A stretch of DNA of 44,287 nt from Desulfobulbus sp. (GTDB lineage: Bacteria; Desulfobacterota; Desulfobulbia; Desulfobulbales; Desulfobulbaceae), in contig DRKI01000127.1 of assembly GCA_011051875.1 (NCBI GenBank), forward strand, positions 1-44,287, in the 5' to 3' direction. A model generated the notes under the pieces. It had not been told where the DNA came from and did not search any database. It worked only from the letters and a program-made list of their open reading frames with translations. Both the position numbers and the translations under genes were made by a program. This document shows, piece by piece, positions 3,737-7,886 of the stretch; positions within the stretch are counted from its first letter, which is position 1, and every line of letters begins with the position of its first letter.

Positions 3737-5080
3737 ATGCAACCAGATACCAGGAAAAACATTCCCCTGGCCGAACGGATGCGGCCGACGACCCTGGATG
3801 AGTTTGTCGGCCAGCAGCACCTGGTCGGCGAGAACAGGATCCTGCATCGTCTCATCGGCCAGGGCAGGATCCCCTCGCTCCTGCTCTGGGGCCCGCCCGG
3901 ATCCGGCAAGACGACCCTGGCCACCATCCTGGCCCATACCATCGACGCCCGCTTCATCTTCTTCTCCGCCGTGCTCTCCGGGGTCAGGGAACTGCGGGGC
4001 GTGGTGGAAGAGGCGGCCGGCGAACGTGAGCGCTCGGGCCGCCCCACCCTCCTCTTTGTCGACGAAATCCACCGCTTCAACAAGAGCCAGCAGGATGCCC
4101 TGCTGCCGCACGTGGAGAGCGGCCTGTTCACCCTGATCGGCGCCACCACCGAGAATCCCTCCTTCCAGGTGATCGCGCCCCTGCTGTCCCGCTGCCAGGT
4201 GCTTACCCTCAACTCCCTGGAGGAGGACGATATCAGGACCATCGTCCGCCGCGCCCTGGAGGACCGCGAACGCGGCCTGGGATCCCGGAAATTTGTCCTG
4301 GAGGAGGACGCCCTGGACCTGCTGGTCCGGAGCGCCGACGGCGACTGCCGCCGCGCCCTCAACTGCCTGGAGACCGCGGTCTCCCTGGCCCGGGACGCGG
4401 ATGGGAGCGCCGGCCTCATCAGCGTGGAGGTGGTCCGGGAGGCGGCCCAGGAACGGACCCTGCGCTACGACCGGGCCGGCGAGGAACACTACAACCTGAT
4501 ATCGGCCCTGCACAAGAGCCTGCGCGACAGCGACCCGGACGGCGCATCCTACTGGCTCGGCCGCATGCTGGCCAGTGGCGAGGATCCACTCTACATCGCC
4601 CGCAGGCTCATCCGTTTCGCCTCCGAGGATATCGGCAATGCCGATCCCCAGGCCCTGCAGGTCGCCCTCAACTGCCGCGACGCCTTCCACATGCTGGGCT
4701 CGCCCGAGGGCGAACTGGCCCTTTTTCAGGCCGCCACCTACCTGGCCACGGCGCCAAAGAGCAATGCCGTCTACATGGCGGAGAAAAAGATCCGCAGCGA
4801 TATCCAGCGTACCGGCTCCCTGCCCGTACCCCTGCACCTGCGCAACGCACCCACCAAACTGATGCGGGAGATGGGCTACGGCCACGGCTACCGGTATGCC
4901 CACGATTCCGACGACGGCCTGGTGGCCCAGGAACATATGCCTGACAAGCTCAAGGGCAGCATTTATTACGAGCCCACCAACCGCGGTTACGAGGCGGTCA
5001 TCCGTGACCGGCTCATCAGGTGGCGGAAAATTCTGCAACAGAGAGCACAGTGCCATGCAAAGCGCCCTGACCCGACCTGA
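3737..5080 (+). CDS. rarA: Replication-associated recombination protein A (AAA+ ATPase)
   Basis: A 447-residue AAA+ ATPase of the RarA/MgsA/WRNIP1 family, related to clamp-loader and RuvB ATPases, which acts at stalled replication forks. Walker A is GPPGSGKTT at residues 52-60, Walker B is LLFVDE at 105-110 with the family-typical Ile-His-Arg-Phe-Asn-Lys extension, and sensor 1 is GATTENPS near residue 138. The C-terminal half has the family's ASEDIGNADP and YGHGYRYAHD motifs, which belong to the tetramerisation part. Length matches the family. The start is an ATG at 3737 with a weak AGGA upstream. Its last 26 bases overlap the start of the cytochrome/nucleotidase-like gene, suggesting translational coupling. 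Confidence 0.95.
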   Translation: MQPDTRKNIPLAERMRPTTLDEFVGQQHLVGENRILHRLIGQGRIPSLLLWGPPGSGKTTLATILAHTIDARFIFFSAVLSGVRELRGVVEEAAGERERSGRPTLLFVDEIHRFNKSQQDALLPHVESGLFTLIGATTENPSFQVIAPLLSRCQVLTLNSLEEDDIRTIVRRALEDRERGLGSRKFVLEEDALDLLVRSADGDCRRALNCLETAVSLARDADGSAGLISVEVVREAAQERTLRYDRAGEEHYNLISALHKSLRDSDPDGASYWLGRMLASGEDPLYIARRLIRFASEDIGNADPQALQVALNCRDAFHMLGSPEGELALFQAATYLATAPKSNAVYMAEKKIRSDIQRTGSLPVPLHLRNAPTKLMREMGYGHGYRYAHDSDDGLVAQEHMPDKLKGSIYYEPTNRGYEAVIRDRLIRWRKILQQRAQCHAKRPDPT

Positions 5081-6668
5081 CAGGATTTTCCTGTTTCTTT
5101 TCCTGCTCATCCTGACGGTCCTGACGGCCGGCCCGCTCCCGGCCGCCCGCGGCGCCGACCTGCGGATCATCTACAGCAACGATGGACGGGGAGAACTGGA
5201 ACCCTGCGGCTGACACGCTAACCAGCTGGGCGGTCTGTCCAGGAAGGCCTATCAGATCAGGAAACTGCGCCGTGATCCGGCCAGGCCGACCCTGGTTCTC
5301 GACAGCGGCGCCATGCTTTTCAGGCTGCCGGTCCTACCTGCCATGACCCTCGCCACCGCCCGGCTCAAGGCAGAGGGCGTCATCCGCGCCCATGCGCAGA
5401 TGGGATACACGGCCGTGGCGCTCGCACCCCGCGACCTGGCCGGCGGTCTCGACTTCCTGCGGAAGCAGGGAAAAAAGGGCCTGCCCTGGATCTCCCTCAA
5501 CCTGGTCACCGACCAGGGCCGGTCACCGTTTCCTCCCATGATCCTCACCAAGAGCGGCGACCTGCGCATCGCCATCCTGGGCCTGACCGGTCCGATCCGC
5601 ATGACCAATGTCCGCCAGAACGGCTACCGGATCATTCCCTGGCAGCAGGCACTGCCACCGGCCCTTGCAGAGGCGGACAGGGCAGCGGACATGGTCATCC
5701 TGCTCTCCAGTTATCCCTTCCGGATCAATCAGCAGATCGCGCAAAATCTGGAAGGGATCGCGATCATCCTCCAGGCCGGCAACTCAGAGGCGAACATGAC
5801 GCCGCGCCTGGTCGGAAACACACTGATCTGCCAGGCTGCAAGCCGGGGCAAGTACCTGGGTATCCTTGACATCGACTGGTCCGGCGGGGAACGATGGGTC
5901 ATGAAGAACAGCGCCCGCCGGGCGCTCCTGCAGGAGCGGCTCAGCAGGATCGGGCTGCAGATGGAGAGAATAAGGAAAGGGACGCCTGACAGGGCCATGA
6001 AAAAGAACAGCAGCTACCGCCACCTCCTTGCCACGCAGGCGGACATCGAGAAGGAGCTGCGGGCCCTGGCGTCAGAGGATGGGCAACAGCAGGGTTCCAC
6101 CTACAGCAACCGGTTCATCGCCCTCGAGACATCCCTGCCCGAGGACCGGCAGGTGGCGGCCATTGTCCGCCAGACCCTGCGCCGGGCAAATGACCTGAGC
6201 CGGAAAGAGCTCGAGAAACGCAGAAATGAGAGGAAGGAAGCGGGAAAGACCAGGCGGCGCCTTACCATGCTGGCCGGAGCCGGAACCTGCAGTGGCTGTC
6301 ACCAGCGCCAGGCCGCCTTCTGGCGCAGGACCCGCCACGCCTCTGCCTGGCAGACCCTGGTCATCCGCAATCGCCAGTTTGACCGTACCTGCCAGTCCTG
6401 TCATGCGACCCTGCCTGCCGAGGCCCTGGCACAGGCTGGTATGCAGACCATGCCGCCCGCCATTCCCGTTGAACTGCGGGGGGTCGGTTGTGAATCCTGT
6501 CATGGTCCGGGCAGGAGACATGCAGACAATCCGGCAGGAAACCGGCTGCGGCTGCCGGACGAATCAACCTGCACCACCTGCCATCAAGCCGAACATGATG
6601 CTGCATTCTCCTATGCCGACCGGCTGGCCCTTGTCCGCTGCCCGAAAACGACCAGACCGGGGAAATAG
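5055..6668 (+). CDS. Probable selenoprotein: secreted 5'-nucleotidase-like/tetraheme cytochrome c (TGA at 5211 read as Sec)
   Basis: One reading frame of 538 codons interrupted only by a TGA at 5211-5213. Before the TGA are a signal peptide (residues 1-35) and the N-terminal strand of a metallophosphatase/5'-nucleotidase-like domain, ending Glu-Pro-Cys-Gly-TGA. After it the same domain continues (HANQLGGLSRKA, then VLDSGAMLF). As I recall, relatives carry Pro-Cys-Gly-Cys here, so TGA replaces the second Cys (Sec53). Four CxxCH heme sites follow at residues 412, 446, 479 and 506 in a cytochrome c554-like region, so the product must reach the periplasm. A hairpin with a GGUCU loop starts 18 nt after the TGA. 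The downstream ATG at 5313 has no ribosome binding site and would give hemes without export. Translation probably couples to rarA. A nonsense mutation is the alternative, but the intact downstream frame and hairpin argue against it. The reaction catalysed is unknown. Confidence 0.85.
5211..5248 (+). promoter_or_regulatory. Bacterial SECIS-like element after an in-frame TGA
   Basis: The UGA is at 5211-5213. A 6-bp stem pairs CUGGGC (5226-5231) with GUCCAG (5237-5242), including one G-U pair, and closes a GGUCU loop (5232-5236). A weak lower stem can form between 5217-5219 and 5246-5248. In E. coli fdhF the SelB-binding loop also presents GGUCU, and its GGU is the seventh codon after UGA. Here GGU is the seventh codon as well, followed by CUG in both. 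This is direct reading plus known SECIS architecture; folding was done by eye. Confidence 0.82.
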
Positions 6669-6865: not shown

Positions 6866-7789
6866 CTAGCAGCCGAAGGCCTTCTGCAGGTTGGGAATGG
6901 TCTGCTTCTTGCGGCTCATCATGCCCTCGATCCACATGGAGTCACCGTCCAGCTTGGTGTCAAAGGCTTTCTCGATCAGGGCGGGATCATCGGAGACAAC
7001 CAGCAGGTCGGTGCCTTCCTTGACCACGTCGGTGAGCATCAGCAGGATGGTATGGTGGCCGCCGGCAGCCTTCTGCTCTTTCATGGCATTGAGCAGGTCC
7101 TCGCGGATATCGGCGACCTGGTCCAGGGTGGCCAGCTCGAGCTGTCCGCAGCCGACCTTGTTGCCATTCATGTCAAAATCCTTGTAGTCGCGGTTGAGCA
7201 GGTCCTTGGCGGGCACGCCCTCGACAGAGCTCTTGGCCTTGAGCATGTCCATGAACAGGCCGTCGGTATCGTCCACACCCGCGATCTCCTTGAGCTCGGC
7301 CACGGCCTTCTTGTCTTCCTCGGTGCAGGTGGGCGATTTGAAGTTGACCGTATCGCTCAGGATGGCGGCAAGCATCAGGCCTGCAACCTTGGGATCCAGG
7401 GTCACGCCTTCGATGTCGTAGAGCTGCTTGAGCACGGTGCCGCTGCAGCCCACCGGCTTGACGCAGCAGAAGATCGGATTGTTGGTGGTCACGTCACCGA
7501 TCTTGTGGTGATCCACAATGGCGACCACCTCGCCGTCACTCAGGTTGTCCGGGGCCTGGGCCAGGTCGCTGTGGTCAACCAGGGCGATCTTCTTGCCGGT
7601 GGCATCGGTCATGACCTCCGGTGTGGCGACGCCGAAACGCTCCAGAACGGTAATGGTCTCCGGATTCAGGTCACCCTGGATAACGGGGATATAGTCTTCG
7701 CCCTTTGCCTTCATCAGTTCGGCATAACTGATGGCAGCGGTGACAGAGTCGGTATCGGGATTCTTGTGACCTACGACATAGACAGACAT
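6866..7789 (-). CDS. ppaC: Manganese-dependent inorganic pyrophosphatase
   Basis: A 307-residue family II pyrophosphatase of the DHH superfamily. It hydrolyses pyrophosphate to phosphate in the cytoplasm, pulling biosynthetic reactions and, in sulfate reducers, sulfate activation. Metal ligands are visible in GHKNPDTDS (His8, Asp12, Asp14), in VDHSD and in the signature Asp93-His94-His95. The C-terminal SRKKQ motif binds pyrophosphate. The start at 7789 is set by AAGGAGG nine bases upstream; a longer reading frame to 7825 lacks support. There are no CBS domains, so it is the short constitutive form. It has its own promoter and terminator and appears monocistronic. Confidence 0.96.
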   Translation of the reverse strand: MSVYVVGHKNPDTDSVTAAISYAELMKAKGEDYIPVIQGDLNPETITVLERFGVATPEVMTDATGKKIALVDHSDLAQAPDNLSDGEVVAIVDHHKIGDVTTNNPIFCCVKPVGCSGTVLKQLYDIEGVTLDPKVAGLMLAAILSDTVNFKSPTCTEEDKKAVAELKEIAGVDDTDGLFMDMLKAKSSVEGVPAKDLLNRDYKDFDMNGNKVGCGQLELATLDQVADIREDLLNAMKEQKAAGGHHTILLMLTDVVKEGTDLLVVSDDPALIEKAFDTKLDGDSMWIEGMMSRKKQTIPNLQKAFGC

Positions 7790-7886
7790 GATTTCAATCC
7801 TCCTTAAAAACGGTTGCAAGAGCATACCCCGCCAGGGATATACACAGTTCCTCCTGATTCCAGCATAAATTCAGCAAACGAACGAA

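Follow-up and report, generated by a model that had tools for sequence, protein, structure and literature searches.

The stretch of Desulfobulbus sp. DNA analysed here (the window, 44,287 nucleotides) contains a gene whose reading frame is crossed by a TGA, and the question it raises is whether the small hairpin lying just past this codon is a bacterial SECIS element. The selenoprotein family itself is already known; the question concerned the hairpin alone. We are highly confident that positions 5226-5242 form the SECIS element for the UGA at 5211-5213. On the sequence evidence, it is a bacterial SECIS of the ordinary kind, with unusually strong comparative support and no new mechanism.

The UshA-like gene and its in-frame UGA

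The gene occupies positions 5055-6668 of the forward strand, taking the ATG at 5055 as its start, and the TGA at 5211-5213 shares its frame both with this ATG and with the downstream open frame ending at 6668. Read with UGA as Sec, the product has 537 residues, with Sec at residue 53 closing a PCGU motif (residues 50-53) in which the family carries either Sec or Cys. Residues 16-521 match the NCBIfam profile NF041198 (UshA_like_PCGU) as one continuous domain that includes the UGA site, at 523.5 bits against a cut-off of 275, and a genome-wide search with the same profile recovered the same gene with one TGA inside. The family has already been listed as a selenoprotein family with a CxU motif (PMC2398784; PMC9312934; PMC13188914, which gives the NCBIfam number).

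The C-terminus of the product matches cytochrome families, PF13435 among them, and holds four haem-binding CxxCH motifs, all in invariant alignment columns: 6288-6302 (residues 412-416), 6390-6404 (446-450), 6489-6503 (479-483) and 6570-6584 (506-510). An AlphaFold2 model (mean pLDDT 86.6) finds its best PDB structure matches among 5'-nucleotidases (CD73, UshA; E 2e-16, TM about 0.4). The product is probably an exported tetrahaem protein with a 5'-nucleotidase-like fold, its export and any function being predictions. In several members from genus g6 (e.g. L172-L175) the profile match extends only to about position 277 and the cytochrome domain is seemingly absent, with the UGA and the hairpin kept.

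As for the surroundings, the first 26 nt of the selenoprotein gene (5055-5080) are also the last of a rarA/mgsA-type AAA ATPase gene (3737-5080, PF12002), and this overlap may allow translation coupling. The next gene, on the opposite strand, is that of a DHH/DHHA2 phosphoesterase (6866-7825).

Geometry, stability and chance

The hairpin was proposed from the letters of the window as a 6-bp stem with a GGUCU loop next to the in-frame TGA, and it is there: on the forward strand, the 5' arm CUGGGC (5226-5231) and the 3' arm GUCCAG (5237-5242) enclose the apical loop GGUCU (5232-5236). Counting from the U of UGA as 1, the 5' arm covers positions 16-21, and the pairs are C16-G32, U17-A31, G18-C30, G19-C29, G20-U28 (the single G-U pair) and C21-G27, closing the 5-nt loop G22 G23 U24 C25 U26. 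The spacing given in the sequence-only reading, 18 nt from the UGA to the stem, has to be corrected, since it is the loop that begins 18 nt past the UGA, while the stem begins after 12 nt. The seventh codon past the UGA is GGU and the eighth CUG; the claim that this is the arrangement of E. coli fdhF is borne out by the matched fdhF sequence, which has GGTC at +18 (the query stretch matches 5,368 E. coli genomes, with annotated fdhF among the matches listed).

The general model of the bacterial SECIS (Zhang and Gladyshev 2005, per PMC13188914) calls for a loop of 3-9 nt, an upper stem of 4-16 bp, a G in the first two loop positions, 16-37 nt between UGA and loop, and a minimum free energy of at most -7.5 kcal/mol. 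With its loop of 5 nt, its stem of 6 bp, its leading GG and its spacing of 18 nt, the window hairpin is a SECIS on every computable point of this model, the energy being borderline: -8.7 kcal/mol (z -2.1) for an isolated 24-nt hairpin with flanks and -7.3 kcal/mol for the bare 17 nt. An Rfam scan of the window gave no match.

Could such a match arise by chance? The sequence-only reading thought this unlikely. Among the 1,155 TGA trinucleotides on both strands of the window, GGTCT stands at +18 in two and an equally stable hairpin in seven, and only the site at 5211 has both. By hairpin energy alone, this site ranks only 5th among 116 frame-open TGAs; stability alone is thus no evidence, and the case must be comparative. 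The predicted fold also depends on the length considered. The pair probability of the window hairpin is 0.87 in 37 nt and falls to 0.15-0.17 in 47-65 nt, and folds of 50 and 56 nt favour another pairing (z about 0). Across all Sec genes the median probability is 0.99, 0.76 and 0.61 at 37, 47 and 65 nt, against 0 in Cys genes, all of these calculations leaving aside the position of the ribosome and the binding of SelB.

Sec genes and Cys genes compared

Searching genomes for the family gave members in 221 of the 257 from the class and in 81 of a phylum-wide sample of 395, almost always with a single TGA inside; a scan of genome contigs with a single protein as query gave one relative only. The site was recognised in 149 fetched genes, the window's included, with TGA in 134 and TGC or TGT in 15, and our counts refer to such recognised sites only, leaving out genes in which the motif is not at the expected spacing (e.g. 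L067, L092, L093, L095-L097, L102, L105, L108, L176 and L177).

The sequence-only reading had proposed to judge the hairpin by its conservation in Sec genes and its fate in Cys genes, and on these 149 members its identification as a SECIS stands. A hairpin with its loop at +18 is possible in every one of the 134 Sec genes, with a mean of -6.69 kcal/mol against -0.98 for synonymous recodings drawn with the family's own codon usage; its loop has 5 nt in 112 genes, 6 nt in 20 and 7 nt in two. In the Cys genes it is found in five and absent from ten, and their mean of -1.25 is that of the null (-1.09). The silent sites tell the same story. Codon 6 is GGC in 123 of 126 Sec genes (background in the rest of these genes 41%) and codon 7 is GGT in 108 of 126 (background 18%), the commonest Gly codon, GGC, appearing there once (background 41%). 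Codon 8 is CTG in 108 of the 118 Sec genes with Leu (background 35%). With one exception, every Sec gene has NCC as codon 9: TCC in 80 of 80 with Ser (background 25%), CCC in 23 of 24 with Pro (31%) and GCC in 22 of 22 with Ala. This freezing of silent sites, specific to Sec genes, is the strong argument for a function of the hairpin.

The way in which stem and loop vary is instructive as well. When codon 9 is Ser or Pro, base 18 is a G pairing with C30 in 111 of 112 Sec genes; the sole exception, L161, carries A18 with U30, two silent substitutions that compensate each other. When codon 9 is Ala, which places a G at base 28, all 22 genes have T or C as base 18, and the stem pairs anew one or two bases further on, through C21-G28 (G21-C29 in L178 and L179), with a loop of 6 or 7 nt whose 5' edge is still at +18. 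The loop is GGTCT in 108 of the 134 Sec genes, GGGCT in 11, GGACT in six, GGTGT in four, GGGGT in two, and GGTAT, GGCGT and AGTCT in one each; the variation touches bases 24, 25 and once 22, and only G23 (134/134) and U26 are constant. The AGUCU loop results from a Gly to Ser change at codon 7 (L163, in genome G141) and equals that of E. coli fdnG. U17 is absent in four members of the family.

Covariation of the stem among relatives had also been proposed as a check, and here the outcome is mixed. The double change in L161 and the pair 16/32, with four concordant, no discordant and 12 neutral pairs, agree with covariation, and yet the tree-aware test of 16/32 gives p 0.125. Naive Fisher tests return p 3e-24 for 18/28 and p 4e-12 for 16/32; we set these aside as proof of covariation because they stem from few independent events on the tree, the change of register between Ser/Pro and Ala at codon 9 being one or two old events. 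Pairwise covariation is consistent with the stem but does not prove it, as it loses significance once phylogeny is allowed for.

A TGA replacing a conserved Cys, as initially supposed, turns out to be the reverse of what the family suggests. Most members have Sec, and the clades with Cys are few and nested; the tree needs at least four Sec/Cys changes (it was built by a quick method, and its deep branches are unsure). Because the Cys clades are nested, the direction was likely from Sec to Cys, although the tree is unrooted. In genus g11, from the same taxonomic family, all members are Cys genes (L028, L031, L083, L086, L089), and in its five assemblies (G070-G074, 69-95% complete) selA was not found and no selB scored above the cut-off, the best tRNA-Sec score being about 47 bits versus 67-79 in genomes with a clear tRNA-Sec. 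The Sec pathway appears to have been lost in this genus, whose UshA-like genes are left with Cys and decayed hairpins. Some genomes of g63 and g69 carry Sec and Cys copies together: in G238, G241, G242, G253 and G256, L080-L082, L084 and L085 occur with L051, L121, L123, L139 and L140. Among the Cys copies of g63 the hairpin is fading (L081 -5.6, L080 -3.7, L084 -0.6).

These comparisons bear directly on other ways of explaining the locus. That the TGA is a real stop or an error of sequencing, so that what looks like one gene is a pseudogene or two separate genes, would fit the plain listing of open reading frames, which leaves two frames unjoined; as 134 of the 149 members, drawn from many families of the phylum, share this TGA, and the profile match continues across it, we give this practically no chance. 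Hardly more credit is due to the idea that the nucleotides match only because a peptide, Q-L-G-G-L-S, is conserved, with no function at the RNA level. It is true that in the protein alignment G59 and G60 never vary and L61 hardly does, Cys members included. However, Cys members with the same peptide keep neither the silent sites nor the stem, only about 1.6-2% of synonymous versions of the local peptide fold equally well, and codon 7 avoids the very Gly codon that these genes use most. The contrast between Sec and Cys genes refutes this explanation, unless codon use in the Cys genes differs for another reason.

A less extreme alternative accepts the UGA as Sec and takes the working structure to be a different, longer local fold, of which the 6-bp hairpin is only a part. 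The extended folds of the window, with their other pairings, speak for it. Against it, the silent sites that are conserved are those of the 6-bp stem and its loop, and even at 47 nt the hairpin dominates in most Sec genes (median probability 0.76). We consider such a longer fold improbable, if less so than the two explanations above, and we retain the 6-bp hairpin as the SECIS element.

Decoding machinery and known SECIS elements

The genome from which the window comes contains selA (638 bits) and selB (388 bits, L008), the best solved relative of the latter being SelB on the ribosome (5lzb). Also present are a pair of selD genes (L180 and L181) whose active-site motifs, AAGUAAK and TCGUAAK, both include an in-frame UGA and whose hairpins have loops of GGGAC at +19 and of GCUC or GGCUCU at +21/+20, as well as two formate dehydrogenase genes (L183; L184/L221) with a UGA and GGUCU at +18. 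A tRNA-Sec was not found in this assembly, which is 80% complete and where the best matches are Ser, Leu and Arg tRNAs; since both sister species have the gene, the miss is likely an assembly gap. We propose that SelB, together with Sec-tRNA(Sec), would bind the hairpin during translation of the UshA-like mRNA, making its contact through the 5' side of the apical loop (G22 G23 U24, fixed 18 nt past the UGA), and would thereby deliver Sec to the UGA at 5211-5213 as residue 53.

It had been suggested that the local SelB recognises GGUCU and that many deltaproteobacterial SECIS loops differ from it. The former is supported by the pair of formate dehydrogenase genes from this genome. Nonetheless, SelB cannot need exactly GGUCU there, because the family also uses GGGCU, GGACU, GGUGU, AGUCU and others, and the local selD loops are different ones starting with G. 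That many loops differ was not seen in our sample, in which one class and two families only are well covered: GGUCU occurs in 108 of 134 UshA-like Sec genes and in 31 of 31 best-matching formate dehydrogenases. These 31 are the two local genes, both with 6-bp unbulged stems and U17-A31 paired, and 29 further best matches in the class with GGUCU at +18, an unbulged stem and the same U17-A31 pair, one being a Cys gene; as the nearest relatives of one query, they do not describe all formate dehydrogenases. The Cys gene (L245, in genome G086) still has its +18 GGUCU hairpin intact, perhaps after a recent switch.

These observations lead us to a generalization that we hold tentatively, at somewhat less than even chances: in Desulfobulbia and their neighbours, SelB may read a class of SECIS in which the 5' edge of the loop is fixed at +18, the stem is unbulged, the 3' side slides one or two bases on when codon 9 changes from Ser or Pro to Ala, and the bulged U17 of E. 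coli SelB is unneeded. The new content of our analysis is modest and consists of a family-wide set of rules. The family nonetheless offers an unusually clean natural experiment on the rules of bacterial SECIS elements, with 134 Sec and 15 Cys genes, at least four switches, one genus that lacks the Sec pathway, and genomes with both copies.

How, then, does the hairpin relate to those already known? From the UshA-like selenoproteins of NF041198 the window gene shows no notable difference, sharing the whole protein, the PCGU motif and the cytochrome domain, and is simply a member; likewise, loop, stem, leading G, spacing and energy are all those of the bacterial consensus, with no notable difference. 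With the SECIS elements of the formate dehydrogenases from this genome and its class (L183, L184/L221, L222-L250) it has in common the +18 GGUCU loop, an unbulged stem (5-7 bp) and U17 paired to A31, while protein and stem sequence differ. With E. coli fdhF and fdnG it shares a (G/A)GUC(U) loop starting 18 nt past the UGA and, with fdhF, also GGU CUG as codons 7 and 8. The likeness to fdhF that the sequence-only reading had drawn holds for the loop and its position, G23 (5233) and U24 (5234) lying in the loop, and fails for the element as such. E. coli requires a bulged U17, and SelB makes its contacts there at U17 and G23 (PMC8659212), whereas here the stem is a perfect one of 5-6 bp, with U17 paired to A31 and no bulge. 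The window hairpin would act like the fdhF SECIS, yet the bulge criterion sets it apart; the bulge rule need not apply outside E. coli, a point of consequence for gene finders and for the transfer of selenoprotein genes between hosts.
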